A stretch of DNA of 64,000 bases from a virus. Below are positions 17,492-49,725 of this stretch, one piece after another. The stretch is taken from positions 1 through 64,000 of IMG/VR virus record IMGVR_UViG_3300044712_000538, one strand, 5' to 3'. The notes under the pieces are model-generated. The model was given only the letters and a program-made list of their open reading frames with translations. It did no database searches and was not told where the DNA came from. The position numbers and the translations under genes were made by a program. The stretch's first letter is position 1. Each line of letters opens with the position of its first letter.

Positions 17492-17501
17492 ATGGGCTAG
17501 G

Positions 17502-17805: not shown

Positions 17806-17813
17806 GGAATTGG

Positions 17814-18046: not shown

Positions 18047-18050
18047 GGTC

Positions 18051-18844: not shown

Positions 18845-18854
18845 GGTTATGGTT

Positions 18855-19139
18855 TTAAAGATTTTCGGCTATCCATATCTCCCGGTAGCTGGAGGACCGG
18901 GGCAGGGCGGTGGTGTGTTTGGCATCATTCAGGTCATGGGCAAAGGTTGCACGAATGGCGTGTTGGGCGTTGAATCCTTGGGACTCCCTTTCCATTCGGA
19001 TGGCGAACAGGTAAAAACCGGCCAGTCCTTCAAGGGATTCAGGTCCCTTGTGGTCCTCCATGGTCATTAGTTTGTATATCCATGTGGCTCTGTCAATGGT
19101 AAATGGGTTGCGGTCTGCTAAAAATTGGAATGCGTCCAT
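18855..19139 (-). CDS. Hypothetical protein, 94 aa
   Basis: A soluble helical protein (DAFQFLADRNPFTIDRATWI; LEGLAGFYLFAIRMERESQG). No family is recognised. It has an AAAATCACAACC leader and is separated by 10 bases from the next gene. Confidence 0.6.
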   Translation of the reverse strand: MDAFQFLADRNPFTIDRATWIYKLMTMEDHKGPESLEGLAGFYLFAIRMERESQGFNAQHAIRATFAHDLNDAKHTTALPRSSSYREIWIAENL

Positions 19140-31066: not shown

Positions 31067-31750
31067 ATGGCAATCGGTCTTGCATTAGCTGCCGCCGGAA
31101 CAATTGCCGGCATTGTCCAGAAAGGAATTGCCGCGCGCCGCCAGCGGAAAGCTGCGAATAAAATCAACCCGGTAAACCCGGTGTATGAAGCTACCAAAGA
31201 AAGCGCCCAGGAACTCGCCATGGCCCGGCAGGCAAACAATGCTGATGTGGCTGGTGGTGCCGCCATGGAGCGATCCGCGTACACCCAAGGTGCCAATACT
31301 GTTGCGGCCGTCATGAAAGCTGGTGGATCTCCTGCCCAAGTCGCGGCCACCATCGCTCGGTCAAACATGGCCACCAATAAAGCCATGGCCGATCTGACCA
31401 TCAGGCGCACTCAGCAAAAGCTTGCCACCATGGGACTTGTCCAAGGTGCCCTCCGGGCCAGAAGCCAGCAACGGATGATGGAGCATCAGGACAAGATTCG
31501 CCGGTACGAAGGGGATCAGGCCGCCAAGGATGCGCTCTACCAATCTGCCGATCAGAACGTGGCTGGTATGTTCAATGATGCCGCTGGATTTGGCCTTACC
31601 GCTGCCATGGGCGGCCTGGATAAGGGTGTTGGGAAAAAACTTGGTGGCATTTTCGGTAAAAGCATGAAGGCATCCAAGTTCCAAAAATCCCTCAAAGCCG
31701 CACAAACGGCCGGGAAAATTGTAGGCTCAACAGACTTCCTACCCGGATAA
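31067..31750 (+). CDS. Internal virion (ejection) protein, T7 gp14-like
   Basis: A 227-residue Ala/Gly-rich protein. It starts with a hydrophobic segment (MAIGLALAAAGTIAGIVQKG) and basic patch, then a long helix with many Ala, Gln and Arg, and ends in Gly-rich turns (AAGFGLTAAMGGLDKG). This matches internal core proteins of T7-like phages that form a channel in the host envelope during DNA ejection. ATG at 31067 is chosen as it starts the hydrophobic segment directly. Confidence 0.6.
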   Translation: MAIGLALAAAGTIAGIVQKGIAARRQRKAANKINPVNPVYEATKESAQELAMARQANNADVAGGAAMERSAYTQGANTVAAVMKAGGSPAQVAATIARSNMATNKAMADLTIRRTQQKLATMGLVQGALRARSQQRMMEHQDKIRRYEGDQAAKDALYQSADQNVAGMFNDAAGFGLTAAMGGLDKGVGKKLGGIFGKSMKASKFQKSLKAAQTAGKIVGSTDFLPG

Positions 31751-31751: not shown

Positions 31752-33647
31752 ATGCAAACACATCCAAATACAGGACGCGAGAAGGCCGGGGTGCTGCCAA
31801 GAATGTTTGCCCCCGTTGGATCATTGTGGCAACAATATTCGGCGCAGAAATCGCGCGAATCTACGCTTGCACAACAGCGATTGAAAGAAGAGCAAGCCCG
31901 GCAGGATGCATTGTCCAAGTACGCGAATAGCCTGATGGACAAAGATCTTGGCACCGGGACCGCGATTGACCCGGTGATCACTCAGGCCCAGGCTGACGTA
32001 AAGCAAGTGCTGGCCGAGGCAATAAAAGCCAACCCAAACATGCGGATGGCTGATCTGGACCTTATGGCCGGGAAATCGGCCGCCCGGATCAAGTCCGCGT
32101 CGGACAGGATGAGGGCGCTGGACAACAATATCAAAGGGTATGCTGCCAGCCTGAACAAGATACCGGGTGTTTCCGGTAAAGATCTGGAGCAAATGGCTCG
32201 GTTTGAAATGCTTTATGCCGATGACGGGAAAGGTGGCTACCGTCTGAAAACGATTGAAGAGATCAACTCCTATGATGGAGATCCGGTTGCCGTGGCCCTT
32301 GAAAAGCATGCAGACAAAATTGTTACCAGGGAGGCGCTGGATACCCATCTGGCAAAGCTCGGCGCGGCACATAAGGATGTTACGGTCCAGTCTGAAAAGA
32401 ATGGTGTTACTACCAAGAATTCCGTCAACGTAACCTATCTTCCCGGCCTGCATGATGTGAACGATGACGGGACCATATCTACCAAGAAGGAAATAAAGGA
32501 TCTGTCTGGCGTTTATGCCAATGTCCTTCCGAATAAAAGCTTTGGGCCCATGGCATCAAGTGTGATGTGGAGCCCTGATCCCGGTGCCGAATTCTCTAAG
32601 AGCAAAAAACTTCCCTTCCCGGCAAAGTTCGCAGAATACTACCCTGACGGTAAAATACCTCAACTGGCTGCAGATGCATACGACCGGATTTTCGGAACGG
32701 AAGGCGGCTCTATGTATCTTGAAAAGGAACTGAAAAAGCAGTACCCGGATCTCGACAAACTGAGCCCGTATTATGAAACCGCGAAGCGCGAAGTAGCTTT
32801 CAATCTGGTGAAAGATTATTCGGACCGAACCGGCATCAAGACCAATGACATGCAACGGAACTCGCCATGGGTCACCAAGATACAACTCGGCATTCCTACC
32901 AGCAGGGTAACGAAAGGCGATGGCGGTCCGGGTGGTGGCATTGACGAGAAGCTGAATAACTCACCGCTGGCCATCGTCGCCCGCGCGATGAATGGCGAAA
33001 CGTCTATCCTGGAAGGCGCAAGGCCAGAAACGATAACGGTCAATGGTGAGAAAAAACAGGTCATGAATTTTGCTCGCGGCCTTGCCGGTAACTTCAAGCT
33101 TCCCGATGATATATTCGGGAAAGGTGTTGAGGCCAGAACTGTTGCCGCGCACCCGGATGATCCGAATACTTTGCTGGTCGTATCTACTGACGGCCGGATG
33201 AAAACATTCAAGGGACCAGCCCTCAGGTCATTCTTCATAAACGTCGGTAAGCTTCAATCGCCGCCGATGGTCCCGGATGATGTTCAGAAAATCGTCAACT
33301 TCTACTTCAAGACTGGAGATACCAAAACGGAAGGATCTTTGGCCAGGTATAACCAGCAGGGATGGGATGAAGCATCTGCAAAGCTTGACCAGCAATACAG
33401 GCAGGAAAGGCTTGCCACATTCAAGACCCTGAAATCATTTGATGGGTCAAAAACAAAGGAGTTTGGAGAGTTCGCAAACAAGAGCGTTTCTATTCCCGGA
33501 AAGCCAGCAAAAACCATAAAATCGTTTACCTTTAAAAAGGGCGGGTGGTTCTCTTCGGACAAATATCTCTTGGAGTTTGCTGATGGAGAAAAAATGGAAT
33601 TTACGAGCAAAGGCGCAGCAGAAGATTTTCTGAACTACATCAATTAA
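31752..33647 (+). CDS. Probable internal virion protein, 631 aa
   Basis: A large, mostly helical protein with a Gln/Glu-rich start (QYSAQKSRESTLAQQRLKEE) and an unassigned middle. It ends in a small beta domain (FKKGGWFSSDKYLLEFADGE). It lies one base after the gp14-like gene and seven bases before the giant gene, the usual place for gp15-like internal proteins that leave the capsid with the DNA. No enzymatic motif is seen. Confidence 0.55.
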   Translation: MQTHPNTGREKAGVLPRMFAPVGSLWQQYSAQKSRESTLAQQRLKEEQARQDALSKYANSLMDKDLGTGTAIDPVITQAQADVKQVLAEAIKANPNMRMADLDLMAGKSAARIKSASDRMRALDNNIKGYAASLNKIPGVSGKDLEQMARFEMLYADDGKGGYRLKTIEEINSYDGDPVAVALEKHADKIVTREALDTHLAKLGAAHKDVTVQSEKNGVTTKNSVNVTYLPGLHDVNDDGTISTKKEIKDLSGVYANVLPNKSFGPMASSVMWSPDPGAEFSKSKKLPFPAKFAEYYPDGKIPQLAADAYDRIFGTEGGSMYLEKELKKQYPDLDKLSPYYETAKREVAFNLVKDYSDRTGIKTNDMQRNSPWVTKIQLGIPTSRVTKGDGGPGGGIDEKLNNSPLAIVARAMNGETSILEGARPETITVNGEKKQVMNFARGLAGNFKLPDDIFGKGVEARTVAAHPDDPNTLLVVSTDGRMKTFKGPALRSFFINVGKLQSPPMVPDDVQKIVNFYFKTGDTKTEGSLARYNQQGWDEASAKLDQQYRQERLATFKTLKSFDGSKTKEFGEFANKSVSIPGKPAKTIKSFTFKKGGWFSSDKYLLEFADGEKMEFTSKGAAEDFLNYIN

Positions 33648-33654: not shown

Positions 33655-36600
33655 ATGCCAGATTGGAGAGAACAATTACTTTCTGATATATCCAAGATAA
33701 AAGACCGGGACGCTGTATTGAAAAAATATCCTCAGTTGAAAGGGGATAAGAAAATGCTCCAGTCCCTTTACTCTTGGAATAACGCAAAAGCATCTGGCAT
33801 CCCGCCTACGGATCTTGATGAAATGTATCCGGAGGTAAAGTCGTTTCTGATCCAGCCCGATGCTGCTCCGGCTCCGCAGCCTGGCGCTACCGTTCCTCCG
33901 CAAAAAACAGTTCCGGTAAAGCCGGTCCAGACTGTTCCGGCACCGGCAGCAAATACCCCGAAACCATTTCAGCAGCTTGAAGCCTCTATTCAAAAGCATG
34001 CTACTATCGCCAAGGCTATCCCGGAAAAGGGATGGGGCGAAGATCTTACCAAAAAGATACTCGGCGGTATCTACCCGAATGTGGGAAATACAAAATCTGC
34101 GCAGCATCGGGAAATGATGATTGCCGAGGCCGACAAGGCTCTTTCTGAAAAGAAGTCGCTGATCGAAAAAACGAAGCCGCTGATTGATGAGGTAGCGAAA
34201 TGGTTCTCGCAGGATTACCAGACCGCAAAAAAGAAATACACGGTTGACGGTACTGACATGGGTGAGATCCGGGAAGACGTTGTGAGGGCCGAAGCCCGTA
34301 ATTGGGCAAAGCGATACGGCGGCGGCTCCGGCGTTGAAGAGATCTTGTTTGCGTCGGCCCTTGGCGCAATTCAGGTTGAGCAAGTAAAGCCGAAATATGA
34401 GGCAGAACTCAAAAGCCTGTATAAGCAGAAGTACGGGAAAGACATGCCGACTGAAAAGGAAGCAGATCTTTTCCAGAATGCTATCGTATCTGCCGCGAAG
34501 GATCAGGTAAACAAGCAGATCGAAAAATCCAGCCAGGAATTGAAGTTGAAGGTATCCCAAACATGGGATGAGCAATTCCGGAAGCAACTGGATGATTCGG
34601 CAAAGCGGTTTGGCTCCGATTCTCCTGAGTATAAAAACCAGTTTGCTCAGTCCGTTGCCGCAATAGGAAAGCTGGAGAAGCAATGGCGGCAAAAGGAGAT
34701 CGCCAGAATCGAGCGGATCAAGTCCGAACTGGAAGCTGGTTTGAAGAAAAAGATTGAATCCTTCAATGCTGAGGAGCAAATGAGGATTGGTGCCATATCG
34801 GACGAGGCATACAAAAAAGCATCTCAGGCATATTCCGAAGCAAAAGGCGAGAAGAAATACCGCGAGGTTGCTGCCGCCAGCGACTTTTTTGGGAAGTCCC
34901 AACTGAACATTGGATTTAATAGGGCGCTTACCGGCCGGCTCCTTTATGGGGTGGCCAGCCTTGGCGATTACCTGGCGAGCGAAGGCTACCAATCGGCCGC
35001 GATTGACTGGATGCGTTCCATGGCTACTACCGGGGGAGAGCTGGACGTTCCGGACCTGAAACTCGGGTTCGATCGGAATCTGGCCATGGCCCTTGCCACA
35101 AGGACCGGTGGCGGTATTGGCTCGTCTGCCGTGCCCATGGGAGCCGCCATGCTGACTATGAATCCGCTGGCCGGAGCCCTTGTTTCCTATAAGATGGAAA
35201 CGGCGATGATGGAGGCCGACATATGGAAAGAGCGTATGATGGCTGGAGATCCTGAAGCAAAGCAAAAGGCCGATAAGGCTGGCGCGCAGACCGCGATACT
35301 CCTGCCCCTTTATGTGCTTGAAATGGACCGCCTTTTCGCGGGCATGAAGAAGGGTGGATGGGTGAACAAGGCGCTGAACATTTATGCCCCGGAACTGGCC
35401 CAGGAAGTCCCTACGGAATACTGGCAGCAGTATCTACAAGCAAAGTCCTCCGGGTTTAAGGGGGATTTTGCTGATTTTGTTGCCGAGGACAAGGGTAACA
35501 TTGCCCTTGAAACCGCTATCGCCACCATCGGAATGTCCACCGTATTTGCCTCCATGGGCAAAAGCACGGAAGCCGTTGGCCGGGCTCTTGGCCCCAAGGC
35601 AAAGGATCAGGCTATTATCTCGCTGGCGCAGCGGACGCAGATGGCCCCGGTGGATTTTGTTCCTACTCCATCCCCGTATAAAGGTCCGGACAATGACCCG
35701 GCCGCTCCGGCTGCCCCGGCCGGCACCGCCCAGGCGGTAGATCCTCAGGCCGCCACACCCTCAGTATCCCCGATTACCATGGTCAATGCCGCCTTGGAGC
35801 AGGCATGGATGAACGGGGAAATGAGTGATGAGCAGCTTGTCGATGAGAAAAAGCATGCTGAAATGATCCTTGCCAAGCAGGATGAACTCGCCAAGCTTGG
35901 TCTGGAGCCGGACATGATCCGGCACTATATCGGCCTGCAGGCTGAAATGGTCTATCTGCAAAACCAAATGGCTGCCGCCAAGGACCCGGTCCTGCAGGCG
36001 AAATTTGAAAAGGACATTGCCGCGATTCAGACGCAGATGGCCAAGGTGATCGACGACAAGATCGAGGAAACCATATTTTCTGTTACCACCCCCTTTGGAG
36101 ATACCTATACCGCGACCGAGAAAGAATTGGATGAGATCATGAACAACCCCCTGTTTGGGGCCCCGGAAGATCTTGTCATTACCCCGATCAAGGGTCGGCT
36201 TACCCCGGACGAACAAAAGGTTGCCGATGCCTTAGCCGGGGCGAAGCTTCCGGACGGCCTATCCGACATGAGCGTTGAGAAGCTGGTCCAGAAGTTTGCC
36301 GGGTCGAAGGATTTCAATGAGCAACGGGAAGCGATAAAAATGTACCGGGATCAGCTTAATGATCCCCTGGGCCCAACTCCCCGGAAGCAAATGATCGCCG
36401 CTTTTGGGCAAGATCTTGCCGACCAGGTTGCCCCTCTTCCCTTTGGAGAGGTTGACAAAAAAGAGGTTGGTGAAAAACAGTTCAAAAACGTAACCGAAAG
36501 GCTAAAGTCCCGAGAGCCAGAAAGCTTTGAGGAAGAGGTTCTGCAAGGGTTCCTGCGTGATCTCCGTTTCTCTTCTGAGGACTTTACTCGGTATGCCGGG

Positions 36601-39600
36601 TTTGGCGGTAATTCCCGCTTGACGGGTGATAAAATTGGCGGCCGGGAAATGCGCCAGTACGCAATGAAGCGCCTCCGAAAAAAGTCGGAAGGCGGCATTC
36701 CCATTGACAAATACGTTCTCCAGCTTGCCGAAAAATGGGGCATTCCTCAGGGACAAGAAACGGACTATATCAATACGGTTATTGACCTGATATTGGAGCA
36801 TCCGGGACAGGCCAGCGTTATTTCTCGGCTGGAAGCCCTGCAGAGCGGTGCCAAAACACAGGAAGAGTATGATGCCTGGCTAGAAAGAAAATATGGAAAT
36901 GCGCAGGCCGCGAAGGATGCATTGGATGCCATGGATGACGACCTTACCGAGGATGTAAATGATGTAATTGAAAAGATTGACCAGATTACAGACGAAGAGG
37001 CAGAAAGCATCGCGGATGGAGCGATGAACAACTTCATCGACGAAAACGGGAACATCGATCTCTCCGCGATAAAGACATTCCTTGCCAGCGATGAGTTTAA
37101 CGCAATGCCTGAAAAGGTAAAATCAATCATAAAGGAGGTTACAAATGGACTCGACCAAGCTGAAACAGACACTCAGGATGATGGCAATACAGATAGCAGC
37201 GAAGAAGAAGACCAAGACGAAGAAGAAACGCCGGAAGAGTTAAAAGACGCCTATCAGACCGAGAACTACAATGATCTGGTGAAGGCGTGGGAAAGCGGAA
37301 ATAAGATATATGCGGTATCGGAACAAGATGAGGCCCCAACCCCTGTTACCAGTTGGGAAATGCTCAATAACTATCCCCTTGATGCATTGTGGATTGTTGA
37401 CCAGCAGGCCGAATCTCAATCCGAAAATGTTGTTGCTCCCAAGAAAGAAACCAAGGCTAAGGTCCGGCAGGAAACAAAAACTAAGCTGGCTGATGAAACA
37501 AAAAAGGCGCTGGATGACTTCCTTGATGCCTTTGATGAACTTGGCAATCTTGGGTTTGCATATGATCCGGAAGAGCAAGCCAAAAAGCAATTCAAGCTTT
37601 ATACTGCTGGCGCAAAGTTTGTTGCCGCCATGGCCAAGCAGGGCATATACCAGTTTAAGGATATGGTCCTTACCCTTGCAGAAAAGATGGGCGAAATACC
37701 CGGTGAACTTTTCCAGGCATTGAAAAAGGCATATGCTATGGCCTATGCTGATGATGAAACGGGCCTGATGGAAGATCCGAAGACATTGCGGACGCTTACG
37801 CTGGAAGACATTCTTGCGGAAAAGGATGATAGCAATGAATTATCTGGAATCGAAGCATTTAAAGAGGCTTTCCATAAGAATCTTTTTTCATTATGGGCTG
37901 ATTTATCAATAAACCCTGATGCAAATCCCCGTCCATCAAACATTATTGACCTTCGGAATATGGCCGTTGAAGCAAACTGGACTGGTGAAAACGGACTACC
38001 GGCTACGGACAATGAAATATTTGAGGCGGTTGAATCTGTTTTGATCAGATTTTCAAGGGAAATTGTTGCCATGTCTAAGGATAACCAAAAGGTTATGAAA
38101 AACCTGATGACGCTTTATAAAGTTCAGCCAACAATTTCAATGCGAGATAGCGACAGGGTAATGCTCCAGCAATACTCTACGCCTATACCATATGCATACG
38201 CTGCTGGCGTGTGGATGAAAAACCAGAACAAGTATCTTGAACCAACGGCCGGAAATGGCCTCCTTACGGTCGCCTTGGACCCGTCTAAGGTCGATGTGAA
38301 CGAAATCGACAAGACGCGCTTTGATATGCTGGCCGATCAGGGATTTTCATCAGTATCAAGCCGCGATGCCCTGGAGGGTTTTTCTGGAAAATATGATGGG
38401 ATAATTGCCAATCCACCGTTTGGGTCAACGGATAAAATAACCACCCAAGACGGGTATCCTATATCCGAACTCGCGCAAAGAATTGTTTATGAATCGTTAA
38501 AAACGCTGACTACAGACGGGAAGGCATCATTTGTCATAGGTGGACATACAGAATATGACGAAAAGGGGATCATGAAGGGGCGGGATCGCTTTTTCTTTAA
38601 CTACCTTTATGACAACTTCAATGTTGTCGATGTTATAAATGTAGCCGGAGATCTGTACGGCAAACAAGGAACCACATACCCTACCAGGCTGATTCTTATC
38701 GACGGAAGAAGGAATGTTGAAGGATCGCCAAGGAAAGAAACTCGGCATGCTCCGATGAAGTCCGTTAAAGGATTTGAAACGGTCGGACTGCAGGCTCCAG
38801 ACGATGCCGTTATATCCAGCTACCCCGAATTACTTAACCGTGTCTTAAAACCTAAAGACTATGGCCAACAAATTGATATTCCATCCGGAATGGACACCGA
38901 CAAGGGATCTGGCAACAATATTCCTGGCAACCGGCCCGGAGGACGCAACCAAGGAGGATCTGGTGGAAGAAATACTTCCGGCACGGTATCGAAACCTGGC
39001 AAAGGAGTATCTCAGGGAGGGGCACGACCTCCAGTATCTGGAAACCTATTTGCCGGAAGCGACGTTCAGAAGCCATCTGAGTCCAAATCAGGTCGCGCAG
39101 GAAATAATGGTAACGCCGCAGTTTTTGAGGGCCAAGGAAATGCTTTACCTCCAGGAGCCGGTCCCCGGCCTGCAGTTAGACCGGAAGTTGGCCGGACAAA
39201 TTTACAGGGACGCAACGCTCCTGACGCTGGTGGAAGCTTTGCAGGAGTTAGAAATGTAAGCATCGAAAACCTGTCTTCCGAAAACGTAGAATACATCCCG
39301 TCTAGCAATATGCAGTTTGAGGTTGGTACGGTTATCCCGCCAAAGATGGCGGTTGAAGTGTATCGGCATCAGGACATGCTTATTGAAATGTATGGGAACC
39401 TTGCCGATTTTGTTCAATCTGAATTAGAGTACGAGCCGGATGAATTTGCTGCTGCTTTTTCTTCCGAACAGGTTGATGCTCTTGCAATGGCCATACATAA
39501 GGCCAAGATGGGATCTGCAATGATTATCGGTGATCAGACTGGTGTTGGTAAGGGCCGGATCGCTGCCGGCATGGTCCGGTGGGCAGTAATTAACGGGTAT

Positions 39601-42600
39601 AAGCCGGTATTCATTACCGCAAAAGCAGATCTTTTTAGCGATTTCTGGCGAGATCTTAAAGATACCTTTAACGCACACCTTCGGTACTTTATCGTTAATA
39701 ATCAAACTCCGGTTACGGAATATCACCTTGATGAGAGTGGTGATGAAGTTCCTGTTGATATATTCCGTTCACCAGAGAAGTCAAATCCAGACTACAAGAA
39801 GATTCTTTTTAATGAATCGGAAAATTCGCAAGATTCATTTGATTTTGTCATGGCTACCTATTCTCAGTTTTCTGGAAAGAAAATGGCCGACAAAATAGGG
39901 TTCATGAAAGGGATGCTCAAAAGAGGATTCTTCATAATGGATGAATCACATTGGGCATCTGGAGATTCAAATACTGGAGAATTATTCAGGGAAATGACTT
40001 CAAGCGCCGATGCCGGGTTGTTCCTTTCTGCAACATTCGCAAAGAGGCCTGATAATATGCCGGTATATGCTACCAAAACGGCAATGAAGGATACTGGGCT
40101 TGATGATGAGGCTCTTGCTGACGCGATATTGTATGGCGGTCCGGCGCTGCAGGAGGCAGTTGCGGCGCAGCTTTCTGAAAGCGGAGAAATGATCAGGAGG
40201 GAGCGCGACTTTAAGGGTGTTGAGATAGATTATATCCCTCTTGACAAAGAAGGAGAATCTTGGGGGGTAAAAGACCAGAGCGAATACCATTGGGATGTTT
40301 CCAGGAGAATGTCTGAAATGATGATGGACATTATCCATTTTCAGAGGCATCACATTCGTCCGTATCTTGATGGTATCCGCGAGGCGGTTAAGGAATCTAA
40401 TCCAGAAATGAGTATAACCAATACTCCGTTTGCCTCAAAGGTTTTCAATATCAATAAGCAAATGCTTCTTGCCCTAAAAGCTGACGCATCGGTTGACTTG
40501 GCTATTAAGGAATTGAAAGAGGGGAAAAAGCCTGTAATATCCCTTTCTTACACAATGGAATCATTCCTGTCTGAGGAACTTGCCGTTGGTGATGTTGTCC
40601 CGAGGTTTGATTTTTCAAGTATCCTTATAAAGGGGCTTGAAGGAACTCTAAAAACAAGGACCCAAAATGGTTGGGGGAAGGTAACCACATCGAAAATAGA
40701 TATTGCGTCGCTCCCTGAGGAGTCCCAGGCCGCATACTGGTCGCTCGTTAAAAAGATTAAGGACAATACCATTGACTTGAACGCATCGCCTATTGACCAT
40801 ATAACGCATCGTCTTGAAAAGGCTGGATATTCTGTTGGCGAACTTACTGGCCGGCAGACAAGGCTTGTTCCGGTTGAAGATGGAGGATGGGCAATGACGA
40901 AATTCAAAAAGAGGAACAAGATAGATCTGGTTAAGAAATTCAACTCAGGGAAGATTGATGTAATTATCATGAATCGTTCCGTGGCTCAGGGTATTTCAAT
41001 GCATGCGTCATCGAAGTTTTCGGACCAGCGGCAGAGGGTGATGATTATCACAGAGCCAGAACTTGACGTAAATGATGAGATCCAAAAGCGCGGTCGTATT
41101 GATCGGGTTGGACAGGTTGTAAGGGGGGCGTATAGGTATCTTGTTTCATCAATCCCCGCCGAGCAGCGATTGATGATGATGTTCAAAAAGAAAGTAGCCA
41201 GCCTTGATGCAAACGCAAAGACAACGCAAACAAACAAGGCCAATGAAGTGAAGGTTGTTGACTTTTTGAATAAATACGGTGATCAGATTGTTGTTGATTA
41301 CTTATTTGAGAATGCTGCACTTAATGATGAAATACTTGATCCGCTAAAAATATCAGATCAGATCTTTTCTGGCGAACGCGATTACAAGCCTCAGTCCGGA
41401 GATGCCCATAAGGTAACAGGAAAGGTTGCGCTGCTTTCTCCAGAAAAGCAAAAGCAGTTTTACGATGACATTTCAAATCGGTACACCGATTTGATGAATA
41501 GCAAGCTTGCTACTGGAGAGTGGGATCTTGAATCAGAGGTAATGAAGCTGAACGCAGAAAAGATCTCTTCAAATATCCTTATTGAGGGAAACAACAATAG
41601 TCCTTTCTCGCGCGACGTTATTCTTGATGAATATGAAATTGACGTTCCGCGCGTTCCGATAAAAAAGGAAGAGTTAATCAAAATGGTTAATGACGAAAAA
41701 GCCGGAAATGATGTTGCTGATTATACCGCTGAAATAATAGACAGGGTTGAGGAGTTTTATGAAAAAAGGAAAGAGGCCATAAAAGAAGATATTACAAAAA
41801 ATCTACTTGAAAAAAGGATACTGATTGTTAATACGATAAGGGCAAAAATGACTGAGAAGAACGCCCCGGCCGAAGAGATTGAGCGTGCGGTAAAAGAGGC
41901 CGAGGAGAGAAATGATTATGAAAGGGAGGAGAAGATAAGGGCTGAGTTTGCGAAAGCTAATAGCTACAAGGACAGGCTTACTAGGTTTGCTAGGTTTTTC
42001 TACCCTGGAAGATCTGTCCGGTTCCCGGTAGGAGAAGGGAAGAACATGGTTACGCACCCTGCCGTTTTTGTTAAGATCTCGTTTTCGGAAAAAGGAATAT
42101 CCGAAAGCGATAGCATATACAGGCTTTCTCCGTCTGGAGTAAAGTTCCATTTTGCCGTCGATAGCGAGATTGTAAGAGATCAGCGTCCGGCTACATCAAA
42201 CGATTGGTTGTATGAAGCCATGATGAACTCTCAAATGGACTTTGAGAATAACCTTGATAATTGGGGCAAGTTTTCTGGAGGCTTAAGGAGGAAGGCGAGC
42301 ATCGTTTCTGGAAACCTTTTGAAGGGGTACGGAACTGTTAAGGTAGGGCGCGTTGTGAACTTTACTACGAGCGAAAATGATATTGCGAAAGGAATATTAA
42401 TGCCGTTTGGCGCTACTGCTGGAGAAGGGTTTAAGGGTAAAAGAATTGTTCCAATATCAAAGGCCATATCTATCCTTTTGGGACAGAGGGGTGCGGTATC
42501 TCTTGGCAAAGATGGTTTTTCTCTTTCCTTTTATGGGAAAATAATGAGCATAATCGTTCCTAAGTCAAGGAAAGAGGGCGGCGTTATATTCACCAATAAG

Positions 42601-45600
42601 GAAATACTCGACATAACCGGACCGTTTTATCAGAATGGAGGAAGCATGATTCAAGAGGTAAACGGTGAATCTTCTGCAAAAAAGGTTGGAGAGGTTCTTA
42701 CAAAATTGGGTTTTACCGCCGTAATTGATGAAAAACACCTTCCCAAGTCAGATGGCAATATAAGCAAGCTTGTTTCGGCTCCGGCTGGCCAGCAAGTAAT
42801 CCCATCAAGGGTCCCGGAAGAGTATATTTCAAGTACGCCCATTTCTCTTGAAGACATGGGTATTGGCCCGAATGATACTGCAGGGGAGATTGTTGACAAA
42901 ATGATTTCCTATGGCGGTCCGTTTACCGAGATCTTGAAGTTCATACGGGCTCTTCCTGGATTTAAAGACATAAGCATCCAGCAAGTTGAATCGCTTGACG
43001 CAAACCATCCAGTTAGGAAAGTAATTGGTGCGCTCGCAAGCGATGCATCCGGCGTTTACTTCAATATGAAGGACCGTCCGGACACAATCGTAACAGAAAT
43101 AGCGGGGAAGCCTATACAGGGTATTGTGGCTATTAATCAGGGTAAAACCAATAACGCATACTATACCCTTACGCACGAATTGCTTCACTTTTTGACCATC
43201 GATGGCATCGACTCAAAAGATCCTGAGGTCAAAAAGAAGCTTAAAAAGCTGGAGGACATTTACCTGTTTATGAGGTCTAAGCGGGATCGCTGGCTGATGG
43301 ATGCCATGGAATCCTCTTCTCAGCTTCCTGGCGGGGACAAAATGCCTGGAAAGAATGTTGAACTGGCTGGCGCGCAAAAGGAACTGGATGGAGCCCTGAG
43401 GGAACTGGAATCGGCCAAAAAGGCTTTTGATGCAAAGAGGAAGGAACTGGATAAAGGAATCGTTGCTGACCAGACAGATCTTTTTGGAAACCGGAAGAGC
43501 GATACCGGCAACTCTCTTTTTGATGAAAGGGCATCTCAATCAGGCCGCGATGCTGCCATGAAGCCTTTCCGCGACCGGCTGAACAAAGCTGAATCGGAAG
43601 CCAACCGTCTTCGGAAAAAAGTCGAAGGTCTTTTGGCTTCTGGCGGCGTGAGCCAGGGCGATCTTTTCTCGGCATTCGGATTTGGTCTGCAGGAATCGTA
43701 TGGCTTTACCAATTTTAGGGAATTTATGGTCGAATTGCTTATGAACCCGATGTTCCGGGCAAACATAAGCAACATAGCGGCACGGTCCGAAATGGAATTT
43801 GCGAATGCAATATGGGCTGGCGCAGATCCGGACAAGAGGTCTATTTTGGCAATGATTAAGGACTATATCCGGTCCCTGTTCAAATCCATTTTTGGAAAAT
43901 CATCTGTAAACCTTAACTCCCCGCTGGTTGATCAGGCGGTTACGCTGGCTGAGGATATTTTCTTCTCCGGGGAAAGCATTGTTGACCGGGTGTACGATAC
44001 CGAGGCGGGGAACTACTTTACCATATACAGTAACTACAATTCTGGACGATCCAGCCGTGGACCAGCATCGAAAACACTTTCTTTCTTCCCCGGATCTGGT
44101 GGCCAGGATACCGATTTCATCCTCAAAAACTATATCGCTCGGAAGGTTGTCGAGGGCATATTGTCGGATGCTACCATTTTGAATGTAGTTCAACGGCAGG
44201 GGATGGACCCGGTACAGGCAAAACAGATCATTGATCAGTACCGGAAGAATCCTCCCGGCAAAAAGGCAATGGCGAAGCTTTCTACGTTGGCCAGGGCTGA
44301 AAAAGTTGGCCCGGTAGAAGATGGCGAAAAGGAAAGGAAGCTGAATCGAATGATACCGGTATTTGATCCAAAGGGTATAGAAAGGATCAATGAGCATGCA
44401 ACAAGGTATTTGCCGAAGTCAATGAAGGTAAGCATGGAAGAGGCAGACAAGTTTATTGTCAATATCCCGACCCAAGATCTGAAGGACTTTGCAACCAATG
44501 TTCATAGCGTCCTGAACACCCTTCCGATTGACGTTCAGACTGCAATACGGATCGCGGCAATCCTGCGCATGCAGAGCGAGGTTACTTTGCTCCGGGCTCA
44601 GGGCGATCACGCCCAGGCTGATCGGGTTTCAGAAGATAGTGCCGAGATCTGGAATCACATGACCCCGCTTTCAACCGAATTGGGCCGGGCCGTGAATCTT
44701 TACAAGCGTCTTATCTCCGACCCGGCATTCTCTAAAATGTCCATCCAAAACAAGTTCAGGGCGTTTGTGGCTATGGCCGAAAAGGCTATTGGCCGGAAGC
44801 TTACAGATGGGGAGAAGAAAAAGTTGTTTGAAATGTTCCAAGCATGGGACGCGGCCCCGGACGGAATTGGAAAGCAAATTGCCATGGCCAAGATTATGGC
44901 CTACATCAATACGCTCCGGCCGATTAATTTGTGGGATCTGCTCACAAACATATGGTACTCAAAAATCCTTTCGGGACCGGCGACGCACTTTACTAACCTG
45001 TTCAGCAATATCTTCAACGGTCCGATGGAAATGTTTGTCCAGTCGTTGGCCATTGGGAAGAAATACAAGTCCAATCCTGGGAAAATTGCCTTTGATCTGA
45101 CCAAGGCTTGGTTCTCCGGGATAAGAAAAGGGTATGTTGAATCGAGGCACATTATGATTTATGGCCCGACGAAAGAGGAATCCACCAAGCTATACCAGAA
45201 TCACCTTATGGAGGAACTGGACTGGACGAAGGCGAATATTCCGTCATTCTGGAAAAAAGTCCTGAACTCGCCAGTCCTCCTATCCTTTAATCCTAAGATC
45301 TTGAAGTATGTCGGCCGGATGCTGGCTGCAGAGGACGCTATGCTCCAGAATGCCGGTGAGCATTCTTTTGCTGAGGTTCTGGCGTATCTGGAGGCCGCGA
45401 AGTCAAACAAGGGTGCCGACAAGAAGCTTTTGAAGCAAATGGCTCAGGCCATGGTGGCCAGCGATTCCATTTCATATGCCAAGGCGCAGCAGCAGGCATT
45501 AGACGAGGCCGTTGCCGCGCTGGATATGCTCCGGGATATGAGGTCCGAGGCTGAAATAGCTGGTAACATGGCTGAGGTAAAAGCTATTTCCAGGGAGATT

Positions 45601-46989
45601 GCCATGTGGGATCGCCAGGTTAAGGGGAAGCATAAAAACATTGCATTCCGGAAGCGGGTGTATGAGATACTGGAGGCCAAGGCTACCGAAACAGAAGAGG
45701 GTGCCCGCATTATGCATGACGCGGCCGCAAGGGCTTCAAAGGTTACATACAATTTCCCTCCAAAAGGATTGTTTACCAGAACGATGTACGATGTTCTAAT
45801 CTATGCCAGCGAGAAAGTCCTTCCGTTCAAGTTCTTTGTTCCGTTTGTCCGGATTGTTTCCAATCTGGTTGACAATATGATCAATTACTCGCCTGCAGGA
45901 TTTGTAACGCCGCTTATCTCTTATGCCAAGCCAAGCGCAAATACCACAAAGGATGAAAAGGGAGCAAGGCCTTTAACCGATGAAGAGCGTACGGAGGTAA
46001 TGATTAAGGCGATGATCGGAACTATTACATGGGTATTCCTTTACAATCTGGCCGTCCCGGACGGGGACGATGACGAGCCGTGGTTTTCTATTACCGGTGC
46101 TGGTCCATCCGACCAGGCGAAGGTATATGAGGCCCAAGAAACCGGCTGGAGGCCATACTCTATCCAGACAAGGGATGGAGAAACCATATCCTACAAGGCT
46201 ACTCCGTTTTTCGCCCTTCTTGCTTCCATTGGTGCCATATCCGATGAAATGAAGTTTGGCAAAAAGGATATATCCGAGAAGGATATATGGGACAAAATGG
46301 CTATCTCGGCATCTGGATTCGTAAAGTCTATTTTTGATAACTCTTGGATGCAGGGGCTTGATGAGTTGCTTAATTCTGCCAAAGCAGAAAACCGGTTTGG
46401 TAAGTTGGATTTCAACGTGGTTGACAAGGTTACAAAAAAAGGTGTTGATGTGGCTGGCGCTTTTGTTATGTCTAACCTGTCGAAGCAGATCGTAAGGATG
46501 CACGACCGGATTACCGAAACGCCAATGAAGAAAGCAGAAACGCCATATGAGCGAATTATAACCAACATGCCGATTGTTCGGAATGTTCTTCCGCATGAGA
46601 TAACCAATGTTTGGGGAGATCCTGTTGTGAACGAAACATATCTCGGGTTCCTTCCCCTGAGGGCCCAGGTAACAGAAAAGGATGACGTAATCTCCCTGCT
46701 GGTTAAAAACGGCGTTTGGATTGGCCGACCCAGGAACAATAAGGAGATTTATGACGGTGATGTACTTCGCCCGCTGACCAACGATGAATATTACAGGTAT
46801 TACGTTCTGGCATCACAAAAGCTGAAGTCCATGCTGAATGACCGGGAAACTATTGAGTACATAACCGAAATGGACCGCGAGGGAAATTCGGACGCGATAA
46901 AGACATTCATTCAATCTCGCAAGCAGAATGCCAACCAGGAAGCATTTATGGAACTGTTTGGCAATAGCGGAATAAATTCAGAGTGGTAA
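33655..46989 (+). CDS. Giant polyvalent internal protein, 4,444 aa
   Basis: One uninterrupted frame of 4,444 codons. Visible parts: Pro-rich linker at 69-104; helical region to about 415; Gly/Ala-rich hydrophobic, possibly membrane-active region at 416-640; a polyvalent-type small domain around 850-1100; acidic linker near 1170-1200; N6-adenine methyltransferase-like domain with EPTAGNG at 1529-1535 and NPPF at 1586-1589; Gly-rich linker at 1746-1864; Strawberry-notch/DarB-type SF2 helicase with GDQTGVGKGR at 1959-1968, DESH at 2096-2099 and QKRGRIDRVGQ at 2477-2487; zincin-like peptidase with HELLH at 3174-3178 and a possible third ligand in FREFMVE at 3354-3360; and a long helical C-terminal region with ILSGPATHFTNLFSNIFNGP near 3770. 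Position after ejection proteins suggests it is packaged and injected. QTDLF (3273) and QGDLF (3334) resemble clamp ligands. Confidence 0.85.
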   Translation: MPDWREQLLSDISKIKDRDAVLKKYPQLKGDKKMLQSLYSWNNAKASGIPPTDLDEMYPEVKSFLIQPDAAPAPQPGATVPPQKTVPVKPVQTVPAPAANTPKPFQQLEASIQKHATIAKAIPEKGWGEDLTKKILGGIYPNVGNTKSAQHREMMIAEADKALSEKKSLIEKTKPLIDEVAKWFSQDYQTAKKKYTVDGTDMGEIREDVVRAEARNWAKRYGGGSGVEEILFASALGAIQVEQVKPKYEAELKSLYKQKYGKDMPTEKEADLFQNAIVSAAKDQVNKQIEKSSQELKLKVSQTWDEQFRKQLDDSAKRFGSDSPEYKNQFAQSVAAIGKLEKQWRQKEIARIERIKSELEAGLKKKIESFNAEEQMRIGAISDEAYKKASQAYSEAKGEKKYREVAAASDFFGKSQLNIGFNRALTGRLLYGVASLGDYLASEGYQSAAIDWMRSMATTGGELDVPDLKLGFDRNLAMALATRTGGGIGSSAVPMGAAMLTMNPLAGALVSYKMETAMMEADIWKERMMAGDPEAKQKADKAGAQTAILLPLYVLEMDRLFAGMKKGGWVNKALNIYAPELAQEVPTEYWQQYLQAKSSGFKGDFADFVAEDKGNIALETAIATIGMSTVFASMGKSTEAVGRALGPKAKDQAIISLAQRTQMAPVDFVPTPSPYKGPDNDPAAPAAPAGTAQAVDPQAATPSVSPITMVNAALEQAWMNGEMSDEQLVDEKKHAEMILAKQDELAKLGLEPDMIRHYIGLQAEMVYLQNQMAAAKDPVLQAKFEKDIAAIQTQMAKVIDDKIEETIFSVTTPFGDTYTATEKELDEIMNNPLFGAPEDLVITPIKGRLTPDEQKVADALAGAKLPDGLSDMSVEKLVQKFAGSKDFNEQREAIKMYRDQLNDPLGPTPRKQMIAAFGQDLADQVAPLPFGEVDKKEVGEKQFKNVTERLKSREPESFEEEVLQGFLRDLRFSSEDFTRYAGFGGNSRLTGDKIGGREMRQYAMKRLRKKSEGGIPIDKYVLQLAEKWGIPQGQETDYINTVIDLILEHPGQASVISRLEALQSGAKTQEEYDAWLERKYGNAQAAKDALDAMDDDLTEDVNDVIEKIDQITDEEAESIADGAMNNFIDENGNIDLSAIKTFLASDEFNAMPEKVKSIIKEVTNGLDQAETDTQDDGNTDSSEEEDQDEEETPEELKDAYQTENYNDLVKAWESGNKIYAVSEQDEAPTPVTSWEMLNNYPLDALWIVDQQAESQSENVVAPKKETKAKVRQETKTKLADETKKALDDFLDAFDELGNLGFAYDPEEQAKKQFKLYTAGAKFVAAMAKQGIYQFKDMVLTLAEKMGEIPGELFQALKKAYAMAYADDETGLMEDPKTLRTLTLEDILAEKDDSNELSGIEAFKEAFHKNLFSLWADLSINPDANPRPSNIIDLRNMAVEANWTGENGLPATDNEIFEAVESVLIRFSREIVAMSKDNQKVMKNLMTLYKVQPTISMRDSDRVMLQQYSTPIPYAYAAGVWMKNQNKYLEPTAGNGLLTVALDPSKVDVNEIDKTRFDMLADQGFSSVSSRDALEGFSGKYDGIIANPPFGSTDKITTQDGYPISELAQRIVYESLKTLTTDGKASFVIGGHTEYDEKGIMKGRDRFFFNYLYDNFNVVDVINVAGDLYGKQGTTYPTRLILIDGRRNVEGSPRKETRHAPMKSVKGFETVGLQAPDDAVISSYPELLNRVLKPKDYGQQIDIPSGMDTDKGSGNNIPGNRPGGRNQGGSGGRNTSGTVSKPGKGVSQGGARPPVSGNLFAGSDVQKPSESKSGRAGNNGNAAVFEGQGNALPPGAGPRPAVRPEVGRTNLQGRNAPDAGGSFAGVRNVSIENLSSENVEYIPSSNMQFEVGTVIPPKMAVEVYRHQDMLIEMYGNLADFVQSELEYEPDEFAAAFSSEQVDALAMAIHKAKMGSAMIIGDQTGVGKGRIAAGMVRWAVINGYKPVFITAKADLFSDFWRDLKDTFNAHLRYFIVNNQTPVTEYHLDESGDEVPVDIFRSPEKSNPDYKKILFNESENSQDSFDFVMATYSQFSGKKMADKIGFMKGMLKRGFFIMDESHWASGDSNTGELFREMTSSADAGLFLSATFAKRPDNMPVYATKTAMKDTGLDDEALADAILYGGPALQEAVAAQLSESGEMIRRERDFKGVEIDYIPLDKEGESWGVKDQSEYHWDVSRRMSEMMMDIIHFQRHHIRPYLDGIREAVKESNPEMSITNTPFASKVFNINKQMLLALKADASVDLAIKELKEGKKPVISLSYTMESFLSEELAVGDVVPRFDFSSILIKGLEGTLKTRTQNGWGKVTTSKIDIASLPEESQAAYWSLVKKIKDNTIDLNASPIDHITHRLEKAGYSVGELTGRQTRLVPVEDGGWAMTKFKKRNKIDLVKKFNSGKIDVIIMNRSVAQGISMHASSKFSDQRQRVMIITEPELDVNDEIQKRGRIDRVGQVVRGAYRYLVSSIPAEQRLMMMFKKKVASLDANAKTTQTNKANEVKVVDFLNKYGDQIVVDYLFENAALNDEILDPLKISDQIFSGERDYKPQSGDAHKVTGKVALLSPEKQKQFYDDISNRYTDLMNSKLATGEWDLESEVMKLNAEKISSNILIEGNNNSPFSRDVILDEYEIDVPRVPIKKEELIKMVNDEKAGNDVADYTAEIIDRVEEFYEKRKEAIKEDITKNLLEKRILIVNTIRAKMTEKNAPAEEIERAVKEAEERNDYEREEKIRAEFAKANSYKDRLTRFARFFYPGRSVRFPVGEGKNMVTHPAVFVKISFSEKGISESDSIYRLSPSGVKFHFAVDSEIVRDQRPATSNDWLYEAMMNSQMDFENNLDNWGKFSGGLRRKASIVSGNLLKGYGTVKVGRVVNFTTSENDIAKGILMPFGATAGEGFKGKRIVPISKAISILLGQRGAVSLGKDGFSLSFYGKIMSIIVPKSRKEGGVIFTNKEILDITGPFYQNGGSMIQEVNGESSAKKVGEVLTKLGFTAVIDEKHLPKSDGNISKLVSAPAGQQVIPSRVPEEYISSTPISLEDMGIGPNDTAGEIVDKMISYGGPFTEILKFIRALPGFKDISIQQVESLDANHPVRKVIGALASDASGVYFNMKDRPDTIVTEIAGKPIQGIVAINQGKTNNAYYTLTHELLHFLTIDGIDSKDPEVKKKLKKLEDIYLFMRSKRDRWLMDAMESSSQLPGGDKMPGKNVELAGAQKELDGALRELESAKKAFDAKRKELDKGIVADQTDLFGNRKSDTGNSLFDERASQSGRDAAMKPFRDRLNKAESEANRLRKKVEGLLASGGVSQGDLFSAFGFGLQESYGFTNFREFMVELLMNPMFRANISNIAARSEMEFANAIWAGADPDKRSILAMIKDYIRSLFKSIFGKSSVNLNSPLVDQAVTLAEDIFFSGESIVDRVYDTEAGNYFTIYSNYNSGRSSRGPASKTLSFFPGSGGQDTDFILKNYIARKVVEGILSDATILNVVQRQGMDPVQAKQIIDQYRKNPPGKKAMAKLSTLARAEKVGPVEDGEKERKLNRMIPVFDPKGIERINEHATRYLPKSMKVSMEEADKFIVNIPTQDLKDFATNVHSVLNTLPIDVQTAIRIAAILRMQSEVTLLRAQGDHAQADRVSEDSAEIWNHMTPLSTELGRAVNLYKRLISDPAFSKMSIQNKFRAFVAMAEKAIGRKLTDGEKKKLFEMFQAWDAAPDGIGKQIAMAKIMAYINTLRPINLWDLLTNIWYSKILSGPATHFTNLFSNIFNGPMEMFVQSLAIGKKYKSNPGKIAFDLTKAWFSGIRKGYVESRHIMIYGPTKEESTKLYQNHLMEELDWTKANIPSFWKKVLNSPVLLSFNPKILKYVGRMLAAEDAMLQNAGEHSFAEVLAYLEAAKSNKGADKKLLKQMAQAMVASDSISYAKAQQQALDEAVAALDMLRDMRSEAEIAGNMAEVKAISREIAMWDRQVKGKHKNIAFRKRVYEILEAKATETEEGARIMHDAAARASKVTYNFPPKGLFTRTMYDVLIYASEKVLPFKFFVPFVRIVSNLVDNMINYSPAGFVTPLISYAKPSANTTKDEKGARPLTDEERTEVMIKAMIGTITWVFLYNLAVPDGDDDEPWFSITGAGPSDQAKVYEAQETGWRPYSIQTRDGETISYKATPFFALLASIGAISDEMKFGKKDISEKDIWDKMAISASGFVKSIFDNSWMQGLDELLNSAKAENRFGKLDFNVVDKVTKKGVDVAGAFVMSNLSKQIVRMHDRITETPMKKAETPYERIITNMPIVRNVLPHEITNVWGDPVVNETYLGFLPLRAQVTEKDDVISLLVKNGVWIGRPRNNKEIYDGDVLRPLTNDEYYRYYVLASQKLKSMLNDRETIEYITEMDREGNSDAIKTFIQSRKQNANQEAFMELFGNSGINSEW

Positions 46990-47660
46990 TGACAGGACAC
47001 ACACAACTATGCAGTATCGATCCATTTGCTCCAGACTTTGAAAAAAAGGAGTCGGTAAATGGATTGTGTTCGATGGCAATGTCCATCTGGTCTGGATGGG
47101 TTATTGATGTATCCGGGGAGGATGATGCCGATCCTGGGCCCAATTCGGAGATAATTACCAAGTATGGACACATGCCGGAAACGGTTTTTGACCTATTGAG
47201 GTGGGTTATACTGGTCTATGATCCGAGGTCCCCGCTGGTAAAGGACTATCCGGATCTTCCGACCAGAAAGTTCAGGGCCCTTGTAGCTATTGGTATTGAC
47301 GAAAAGGAATCTGATTGGGACTGGCTGATCTTGAATCGGGACAAAGGGGTTACAACAATGATTACCGCATACATGCGGAATTATTGCAAAAGCCGATTGT
47401 GGGCAATGATTGTTGCCAATAACGAGGCTTTTTGGGAGTTCTTTTCTACGATGATCGAAAGGAATCAGGAAGGGGCCGATGACATGAATGGCGTAAACGC
47501 CAAGATTAAAACGTCCGACGGGATGGTTTCGCTTCTGGAGAAGATTGATAAGCAGATGAATGACTTTTATGGCGAGGATAAGGAAACCATAGCGGAAGGG
47601 GACGAAATGTTTATGAGCGTAGAAAAAATGGCCGATGTACTATCCAATAGAAAACGGTAG
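46989..47660 (+). CDS. Hypothetical protein, possible small terminase
   Basis: A 223-residue acidic protein with several Trp residues (MPETVFDLLRWVILVYDPRS; DWDWLILNRDKGVTTMITAY) and a helical C-terminus. It sits directly before the large terminase and overlaps it by 26 bases, the usual place for the small terminase subunit, but I see no clear DNA-binding HTH. ATG at 46989 shares one base with the stop of the giant gene. Confidence 0.45.
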   Translation: MTGHTQLCSIDPFAPDFEKKESVNGLCSMAMSIWSGWVIDVSGEDDADPGPNSEIITKYGHMPETVFDLLRWVILVYDPRSPLVKDYPDLPTRKFRALVAIGIDEKESDWDWLILNRDKGVTTMITAYMRNYCKSRLWAMIVANNEAFWEFFSTMIERNQEGADDMNGVNAKIKTSDGMVSLLEKIDKQMNDFYGEDKETIAEGDEMFMSVEKMADVLSNRKR

Positions 47661-49725
47661 CATATTCGAGGTCCAGGGACTTAAATGCAACGTGCCTCCG
47701 GTAGGGTACGTTTGGGATGTTATCTCTAATAAGCTTGTTCATACCGGTGTTTATAAAAGATCCAGTAAGCCGACTGAGCAATATTGGGAGCGGTTTGAAT
47801 TGCCTCCGTGGTTTAAGGATCGGCGCAAGAAGGAACTTCGGATGCAGGAAACGGACCCGAATTATTACGATCCGGATCTTGCTGAGATTATAAAAAGGGA
47901 ATGGTTCCGCAGGCTGAATGGATTTTGGTTCTGGAACTATAACCCAAACAAAAAGGAAAGCGAGCCGTGCTATATTACCGGGTCGCATTATTTCTATGTT
48001 CAATGGTGGTGCCTTGATACTGGATACCCTGATTTCCGGATAACAGACCTTGAATACTACTACTTTCAGGCATATTGCATTGCAGATCCGTACTGTCTTG
48101 GCATGATTGAGATCGCAAAGCGTAGGCACGGAAAGACGTTCAAGGGCGGTCTATTTATCTATGAGTACGTTTCCAGGATGAAAGAAGCCATCGGCGCACT
48201 TCAATCTAAAACAAACATTGATGGAAGAAAAGTATTCAGAAAAGCAATCGTTCGACCGTTTAGGAAATTACCATATTTCTTCCAGCCACACTATGACACA
48301 ACTACTGGTAAAAGCCCTCAGAAAGAACTTCGTTTCATGGCTGGCAACATTCGTGGTAAGCTGGCCGAAACAATTGATGATATTGATGAATTGAACTCCC
48401 ATATCGACTTTGGGCCGAGCGATGAAGAATACTATGATGGCCAGAAGATCCACCGATACCTTGGGGATGAGGTTGGGAAAACAAAGGTAGTTGACGTTTA
48501 TGAACGCCACCAGATTGTCCGGTATTGTCTTATGTCCCCGGACGGGAAGGTTCTTGGGAAATGCCTATATACTACCACGGTTGAGGATATGGGCAAGGAC
48601 CAGTTCTCCATTAAGAAATTCAGGAAGCTTTGGGACAACTCCAGCCAGTATGAGAAAGAGGAGAAGGGTCAGAAATGGACGAAGACGGGCCTTTATCGTT
48701 ATCTGGTAAAGGCGTACCGCTGCCGGCATGTTGACAAATACGGGTACGCCAATGAGAAGCTTGCGCTGGAAGAAATGATGGAGGAGCGCGCAATACATGC
48801 CGATGATCCTAAGGCGCTGAGTGCGCTTATCCGAAAGGAGCCTAATGATGAGGGAGAAGCTTTCCGGGTAGACGCTTCCAGGTGCCACTACAATCCGAAC
48901 ATCCTTTACAACAGGCGTGACTATCTTACCATCCACGATTCGTCAACATTCTATGTTCGGGGGAATTTTGCATGGAAGGACAATAAGCCGTTTACAGAGG
49001 TGGTTTTCAATAAAAACCCGAAGGGAAGATGGCGCGTTGCTTTATTGTTTGGCGACAGGAAAGAGGCGAATAATGTCCAAAAAAGAGGCAATTTGTTTTT
49101 CCCAGGGAATAAATTGCGATTCATAACGGGGGCTGACCCGTATGATCACGATATTACCGAGGATGATAGCCGGGCAAGTGATGGCGCAGGGGCTACCCTG
49201 CATCGGAATGACAGGAAGAGCCCGTATCATAAAGACTATGGAATGTCATTCGTGTGCATATACTTGGCAAGGCCGTCAAACGCTGACCTATATTACATGG
49301 ACATGATTCTCCAGTGCTGGTATTATGGATCTCCATTGATCTTTGAGAGCCAGAAGCCGGGGATCAAGAAGTTTTTTATTCGGCACCGGATGGAGCCCTT
49401 CTTGGTTATGGTTCCGGGATATTCTGATTACGGCATTCCTTCAACCATTGAGAACAAAAACGAGATAGTTTACGCTACGGAAAACCTTATCGATAATCAT
49501 TCTTCAAAGATATATTTCATCGAATGTATTGATGACTGGTTGGAATTTGACATAAAAAATACGAAGCCATTTGACTTGTCGATGGCAACAGGATGGGCGG
49601 CAGTAGGTGATAGCATTTTGTTGAGTACGGAAAAGAAGTATGATGATCTTGTTGATATACCTATGGTAAATTCCCTGGAAAGCTATTTCGATGAATTTGA
49701 AATACCCTCAATAAACAGAAGATAA
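47635..49725 (+). CDS. terL: Terminase large subunit
   Basis: A 696-residue packaging motor. The ATPase has a Walker A-like loop AKRRHGKT at 161-168 and Walker B YLGDE at 275-279; the C-terminal RNase H-like nuclease has its first acidic residue in ITGADPYDH (Asp-501), with later acidic positions toward the end. It cuts and pumps phage DNA into the prohead. The N-terminal 150 residues are longer than usual and Trp/Tyr-rich. It is followed one base later by the portal gene. Confidence 0.9.
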   Translation: MYYPIENGSIFEVQGLKCNVPPVGYVWDVISNKLVHTGVYKRSSKPTEQYWERFELPPWFKDRRKKELRMQETDPNYYDPDLAEIIKREWFRRLNGFWFWNYNPNKKESEPCYITGSHYFYVQWWCLDTGYPDFRITDLEYYYFQAYCIADPYCLGMIEIAKRRHGKTFKGGLFIYEYVSRMKEAIGALQSKTNIDGRKVFRKAIVRPFRKLPYFFQPHYDTTTGKSPQKELRFMAGNIRGKLAETIDDIDELNSHIDFGPSDEEYYDGQKIHRYLGDEVGKTKVVDVYERHQIVRYCLMSPDGKVLGKCLYTTTVEDMGKDQFSIKKFRKLWDNSSQYEKEEKGQKWTKTGLYRYLVKAYRCRHVDKYGYANEKLALEEMMEERAIHADDPKALSALIRKEPNDEGEAFRVDASRCHYNPNILYNRRDYLTIHDSSTFYVRGNFAWKDNKPFTEVVFNKNPKGRWRVALLFGDRKEANNVQKRGNLFFPGNKLRFITGADPYDHDITEDDSRASDGAGATLHRNDRKSPYHKDYGMSFVCIYLARPSNADLYYMDMILQCWYYGSPLIFESQKPGIKKFFIRHRMEPFLVMVPGYSDYGIPSTIENKNEIVYATENLIDNHSSKIYFIECIDDWLEFDIKNTKPFDLSMATGWAAVGDSILLSTEKKYDDLVDIPMVNSLESYFDEFEIPSINRR

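Follow-up and report, generated by a model that had tools for sequence, protein, structure and literature searches.

The window analysed here covers 64 kb of the 75,939 bases of a virus record and carries at positions 33655-46989 (+) a single open reading frame that starts with ATG and runs without interruption over 13.3 kb. It encodes a giant protein of 4,444 amino acids with no cysteine in the frame, in agreement with the single frame of that length named in the original prediction, and occupies 17.6% of the record. This gene closes a set of three ejection genes located behind the tail genes and is the longest of them, the order being muzzle, 227 aa, 631 aa, 4,444 aa. The muzzle-like virion protein (1,165 aa; 27565-31062, +) was recognized by a match to phrog_14478, a weak match to Pfam crAss_MUZ and an hhalign match of 99.1% to flavophage homologues. 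The giant gene lies before the terminase, as had been stated, with one small ORF (46989-47660) between them; the terminase large subunit (47635-49725, +; phrog_6681, E 2e-62) is followed by the portal protein (49727-52126, +; phrog_6547, E 2e-58).

The terminase and the muzzle-like protein have their nearest relatives in Flavobacteriia podoviruses, namely Elemovirus, Cellulophaga phi38:1 and phi18:3, Maribacter Panino, and Tenacibaculum Gundel, and the muzzle also weakly resembles the crAss muzzle; single-sequence scans of viral contigs with the terminase gave no relatives. Judged from its sequence, the virus is a short-tailed phage with kinship to Bacteroidota phages (flavobacterial, and distantly crAss-like). 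The two smaller proteins of the set, one of 227 aa (31067-31750, +; 243 aa if started from the TTG at 31019) and one of 631 aa (31752-33647, +), stand in the gp14 and gp15 slots, respectively, and both lack cysteine. They had been described as gp14-like and gp15-like genes, a description that agrees with their layout and size but not with their sequences, for which no link to flavophage, T7, Bcep or crAss counterparts was found; their assignment is therefore made from layout and lack of cysteine only. Elsewhere in the window, a separate small DNA methyltransferase is encoded at 14019-14780 (-) (phrog_757, E 1e-44), so the phage encodes a free-standing methylase as well, and the protein at 62667-63998 has a K319L-like PKD domain (E 4e-22) and probably serves adhesion as a component of the tail or of a fibre. 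A PADLOC match to DrmD was rejected as insignificant (13 bits).

The N-terminal part of the giant, residues 1-1260 (33655-37434, +), had no detectable relatives in an iterated HMM search. It contains an EVPTEYWQQ motif at residue 584, which a motif scan also located near position 541 of BS-TP4, and a GFGG motif at residue 982, considered as a possible trace of LPD36, which lies 500 residues before the enzyme cassette in a region with no family match. The next segment, residues 1261-1387 (37435-37815, +), is common to the crAss-like cr10_1 gp32 and to the giant of a further viral locus, L035 (blastp E 3e-10; HMM). An adenine methyltransferase follows (37999-38724, +), with a TP motif at 1509, EPTAGNG at 1529 and the predicted NPPF at 1586. 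It was identified by Pfam MTS (1561-1637, E 6e-6) and by HsdM matches in PDB, where the cassette profile matched type I restriction methylase subunits (2okc, E 6e-4); with the TP motif upstream of NPPF, it is assigned from its motifs to the gamma-type adenine methyltransferases.

Behind the methyltransferase lies a Strawberry-notch SF2 ATPase, residues 1935-2550 (39457-41304, +), with the Walker A motif GDQTGVGKGR at 1959, DESH at 2096 and motif VI, QKRGRIDR, at 2477. Pfam recognized AAA_34 at 1935-2195 (E 4e-11) and, at 2380-2550 (E 5e-19), Helicase_C_4, which is the C-terminal domain of Strawberry-notch proteins; PF13872 and PF13871 both passed the cut-off. Profile searches of the segments thus returned both the helicase and the methyltransferase, which disposes of the objection that such searches would match neither. 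The Strawberry-notch branch is counted within the SWI2/SNF2 clade (PMC5512222), and in the giant an SF2 ATPase of this clade is fused C-terminal to a methyltransferase, as in DarB-like polyvalent proteins. Of the expected "Strawberry-notch/DarB-type" helicase, the Strawberry-notch half was confirmed and the P1 DarB branch was not, direct kinship with P1 DarB being rejected at a blastp E of 0.27 to the giant. The cassette ends with a C-terminal extension, residues 2551-3034 (41305-42756, +), which was recognized by HMM and is kept in standalone and giant homologues; the blastp alignments with BS-TP4 and L035 end at 3030-3034. Catalytic positions are near-invariant among 93 homologues (the TP motif, EPxAGNG, NPPF, GDQTGxGKGR, DE[AS]H, SAT and QxxGRxxR), and the window copy retains all motifs.

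The limits of the cassette are also marked by composition. Four-fold-site GC is 0.377 inside it vs 0.559 outside (0 of 2000 permutations), the best contrasting segment comprises residues 1398-3177, and the homology breakpoints at about 1260 and about 3030 coincide with the GC shift. Relatives of the core came from alignment-based search, single-sequence scans of viral contigs having given none, and since E-values from HMM iteration lack independence, those quoted come from blastp without iteration and from PHROG. Cassette matches were obtained at 38 viral loci and in 326 genome matches, chiefly from Bacteroidota among the matches listed; the cassette occurs both as standalone proteins, mostly of 1.5-2 kaa, and inside giants of up to 6.6 kaa. 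In a tree of the core, the window, L035, the BS-TP4 clade and the standalone clade form four lineages without resolved branching, so that single and repeated capture of the cassette are not told apart, and the window cassette sits on a long divergent branch.

Shortly after the cassette, a HELLH motif occurs at residues 3174-3178 (43174-43188, +), with Glu 3356 or 3360 in NFREFMVELLMNP as a possible third ligand. HExxH alone appeared in 2% of shuffles and a stricter zincin pattern in 0 of 2000. The motif stands at the place matching the zincin of DarB-like polyvalent proteins, and it marks a candidate zincin and putative peptidase on motif grounds. Of the HELLH zincin predicted earlier, the motif is there but the fold was not recovered: the region had no Pfam family match and no PDB match, its AlphaFold model was uninformative (pLDDT 44), and no profile link was detected to the HEAVAH domains of BS-TP4-like giants.

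The C-terminal part, residues 3675-4395 (44677-46839, +), is an internal virion (ejection) protein module. Searched alone, the C-terminus matched phrog_6651, "internal virion protein", with an E of 1e-7, as did 16 of 16 aligned relatives. Un-iterated blastp connected residues 3675-3923 with internal virion protein D of Fussvirus (E 2e-8) and residues 3974-4395 with a 1,121-aa protein of MW202801 (E 1e-28), and a profile of the marine phage proteins matched the single window sequence with an hhalign probability of 97%. The enzyme cassette (about 1260-3030) therefore sits inside an ejection protein. The same C-terminus is present in another cassette-bearing giant, of 3,386 aa (L051), and in Fussvirus and other marine T7-like phages the C-terminal 720 or so residues are colinear with those of the window giant; like the giant, Fussvirus internal virion protein D has no cysteine, but it is only 1.2 kaa long and lacks the enzyme cassette. 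No homology to T7 gp16 was found (hhalign probability 0.2%); gp16-like proteins diverge greatly from one another (PMC8954989). An LPD38-type C-terminus, as in the tails of BS-TP4 and Bcep22, was rejected (hhalign probability 1.5%).

Structure prediction, which had been proposed as a check, gave models of low confidence both here (pLDDT 50) and for the HELLH region, and a PDB fold search with the C-module model returned nothing significant. A BFVD fold search gave low-confidence matches to a Synechococcus phage internal virion protein and to a polyvalent ADP-ribosyltransferase protein. The "membrane-active regions" that had been read into the protein were not recovered as transmembrane helices, no 19-residue Kyte-Doolittle window exceeding 1.5 (the best were 1.49 at 4116 and 1.46 at 616).

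In the flavophages, the muzzle homologue shares a late region with three genes, two of them for proteins of about 200 and about 500 aa and one for a giant of 1.7-3.7 kaa. The giants phi18:3 gp123, phi38:1 gp101, Elemovirus gp21 and Gundel_74 occupy the same slot in the three-gene set as the window giant, beside a muzzle homologue, and have no cysteine; in Cellulophaga phi18:3, gp120, gp121 and gp123 are all annotated from MS/MS proteomics. Sequence comparison, N-termini included, detected no similarity between them and the window giant, and neither a methyltransferase nor a helicase was found in these proteins, so the slot is all that they have in common with it. In phi-crAss001, the muzzle is followed by the cargo proteins gp45 and gp46 and by RNA polymerase proteins, which were found in virions (PMC10172136).

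Closer in architecture are the DarB-like giants of Bcep22-like phages, JC1 gp69 and BcepIL02 gp70 (4.5-4.7 kaa). As in the window, they come third, after virion proteins of about 200 and about 510-530 aa, and combine an NPPF methyltransferase, an SF2 helicase, an HExxH-like motif behind it and an ejection-type C-terminus, with no cysteine. They differ in having a SNF2-type helicase, an N-terminal transglycosylase and LPD3 and LPD38 domains (BcepIL02 gp70 shows the transglycosylase, NPPF, the SNF2-type helicase, LPD3, a HEAFH motif and LPD38), and blastp found no significant similarity between them and the window protein. CsCl-purified virions of JC1 contain gp67 (196 aa), gp68 (510 aa) and the DarB-like gp69 (4,515 aa), the last identified by 51 unique peptides (PMC9144972). 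Gp3 of Bacteroides phage BS-TP4 and the related prophage proteins (5.4-6.6 kaa) are 33% identical to the window protein over residues 1385-3034 of the latter and also carry a zincin-like motif just behind the methyltransferase-Strawberry-notch cassette; unlike the window giant, gp3 has HEAVAH rather than HELLH, a BcepIL02-like C-terminus, four cysteines and, by eye, a DdrB-like, ParB-looking segment. The L035 giant (IMG/VR 3300008267_000030, 4,026 aa) reaches 36% over window residues 1266-3030 and adjoins a muzzle homologue, but its N- and C-termini are different, it has no HExxH, and its muzzle gene is located downstream rather than upstream. Relatives reach 4.0-6.6 kaa, and because cassette giants extend to 6.6 kaa, the 4,444-aa length is ordinary, contrary to what had been supposed.

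P1 DarB, a methyltransferase-helicase, is packaged and forms part of a system protecting DNA against type I restriction (PMC9024508; also PMC5512222); it differs from the window giant in belonging to the SNF2 branch, in its length (2,255 aa) and in coming from a contractile-tailed phage. Polyvalent proteins with a methylase, a SWI2/SNF2 ATPase and a zincin were described in 2017, Strawberry-notch versions being noted in a few cases (PMC5512222); no experiment on a packaged protein of the Strawberry-notch type was found. By its domain composition, the window protein resembles the known giant injected anti-restriction proteins, with a Strawberry-notch cassette and a phrog_6651 tail in place of the SNF2 cassette and the LPD38 tail.

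The complete absence of cysteine distinguishes the giant from the rest of the phage, the other genes of which would lead one to expect 33 cysteines in 4,444 residues (P 4e-15); the other two frames of the giant gene contain 87 and 214 cysteine codons. Ejection proteins of 11 podoviruses, a sample rather than a full survey (including loci L004-L014 and L157-L162) with comparison genes chosen by annotation and position, had 3 cysteines in 35,183 aa, vs 192 in 38,608 aa (4.97 per 1000) for the other virion proteins and 167 in 14,540 aa (11.5 per 1000) for the non-virion proteins of the same phages. None was found in vRNAP, gp51 and gp52 of N4 (4,294 aa), in gp7, gp20 and gp16 of P22 (1,309 aa) or in the BcepIL02 trio (5,431 aa); the T7 ejection proteins have one and crAss001 gp45 has two, and the crAss001 RNA polymerase cargo is nearly free of it (1, 1 and 3 cysteines in 2,341, 1,349 and 2,412 aa, respectively). 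DarB of the contractile-tailed phage P1 has nine. Near-absence of cysteine is thus a hallmark common to the window giant and the injected proteins of T7, P22 and N4.

The same tendency is seen within the cassette family, where the median number of cysteines per 1000 residues is 0.77 in giants vs 3.17 in standalone proteins (p 5e-15, a value that ignores relatedness), and two alignment columns with cysteine in 58 of 60 standalone homologues have mostly Ala or His in giants. Podovirus ejection proteins, including the 3,500-residue RNA polymerase of N4, are essentially cysteine-free and homologous cytoplasmic enzymes are not. This pattern fits avoidance of oxidation or of disulfides during unfolded passage through the periplasm. 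A limited check of the ejection-protein literature, not a full one, found no mention of cysteine avoidance.

We consider it likely that the giant is a packaged ejection protein that enters before the DNA and becomes anchored at the inner membrane, bringing in a methylase-translocase that, like DarB, protects the incoming genome. As the largest of three internal virion proteins, it would be packaged in the head and extruded unfolded through portal and tail ahead of the DNA, crossing the oxidising periplasm, which is proposed as the reason for its lack of cysteine. The C-terminal helical module would then lodge at the inner membrane as part of a DNA entry channel, thereby exposing the methyltransferase-translocase cassette to incoming DNA in the cytoplasm. 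There the cassette might run along the DNA, methylating it or shielding it against type I restriction, as proposed for DarB, and once inside, the chain may be split into units by its HELLH segment. The module make-up, the intact catalytic motifs, the ejection-protein module, the trio layout and the absence of cysteine are properties of the sequence itself. Packaging and ejection, deduced from the module, the slot, the precedents and the lack of cysteine, appear well supported by comparison; blocking of host restriction is suggested by functional likeness to DarB alone, and the membrane role and self-cleavage are conjectural. That the protein both aids ejection and acts like DarB was part of the original prediction, with which the C-module, the slot proteins detected by mass spectrometry in phi18:3 and JC1, and the lack of cysteine agree, and from which its placement outside the P1 DarB branch departs; what the analysis adds to it is the ejection-protein module, the limits of the cassette and the signature of missing cysteine.

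The cassette could instead serve mainly as an entry motor, a membrane-held Strawberry-notch translocase that pulls DNA in with ATP, methylation being secondary. An intact ATPase of the dsDNA-translocase type fused to an internal-virion-protein module would suit such a role, and T7 gp16-C is thought to be cytoplasmic, DNA-binding and involved in genome entry (PMC8954989). Sister flavophages without the cassette must nevertheless enter without such a motor, standalone cassettes exist outside phage particles, and the methyltransferase is intact in 93 of 93 homologues, all of which makes this reading rather unlikely. The broader proposal that a membrane-anchored, ATP-driven import motor methylates the genome while reeling it in, and that absence of cysteine is a general law for proteins of short-tailed phages threaded through the periplasm, is likewise improbable.

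It is considerably less probable that the giant stays out of the virion and works inside the cell as an ordinary enzyme, made late from the structural operon, even though the phage encodes a separate small DNA methyltransferase (14019-14780). Against this stand the phrog_6651 module, the trio layout with members detected by mass spectrometry in phi18:3 and JC1, and the lack of cysteine, standalone homologues having 3-4 per 1000 residues. A decaying enzyme passenger, carried passively within a mosaic ejection protein, is marginally the least probable of these readings. The long divergent branch of the window cassette and the 1,260 N-terminal residues without relatives would be in keeping with decay, but all catalytic motifs are intact, the frame is intact over 13.3 kb, and similar fusions occur in L035, L051, BS-TP4-like and Bcep22-like phages.

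The domain boundaries show that a mobile methylase-translocase cassette has been inserted in a DNA-ejection protein, a finding that joins the idea of anti-restriction by DarB to the ejectosome of podoviruses. Near-absence of cysteine may serve as a sequence signature for injected proteins, which, if this is true, would be recognizable from sequence alone. Should the signature hold widely, it would offer a sequence test for the injection of phage proteins through the periplasm, which at present is decided for each protein singly by mass spectrometry and cryo-EM.

Other cargo domains may swap into the same slot, as suggested by a segment looking by eye like a GNAT acetyltransferase before the cassette of the L035 giant (6983-19063) and by a weak GNAT match in the Gundel giant (L011, 12058-19506). 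A cassette nearly identical to that of BS-TP4 (tree distance about 0.002) was found in the type strain Phocaeicola massiliensis DSM 17679 (L060, NZ_KB905472), within a 5.4-kaa chromosomal gene that probably belongs to a prophage; this strain would be convenient for laboratory work. Standalone copies (L106, 3641-16149; L080; L097) adjoin serine recombinases and defence-like genes, the latter including a MukB-like protein of 1,113 aa, which stands among ORFs of 442, 221 and 282 aa in an arrangement reminiscent of Wadjet, and a HEPN protein; a neighbour of about 490-540 aa lies directly behind the standalone methylase-Strawberry-notch gene. These loci possibly represent a mobile, defence-carrying element. 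A 1,986-aa cassette relative with nine cysteines is encoded in the record of Acinetobacter phage MD-2021a (L003, 18555-24515), which also has a TraY-like gene and may be a plasmid-like element, not a podovirus.
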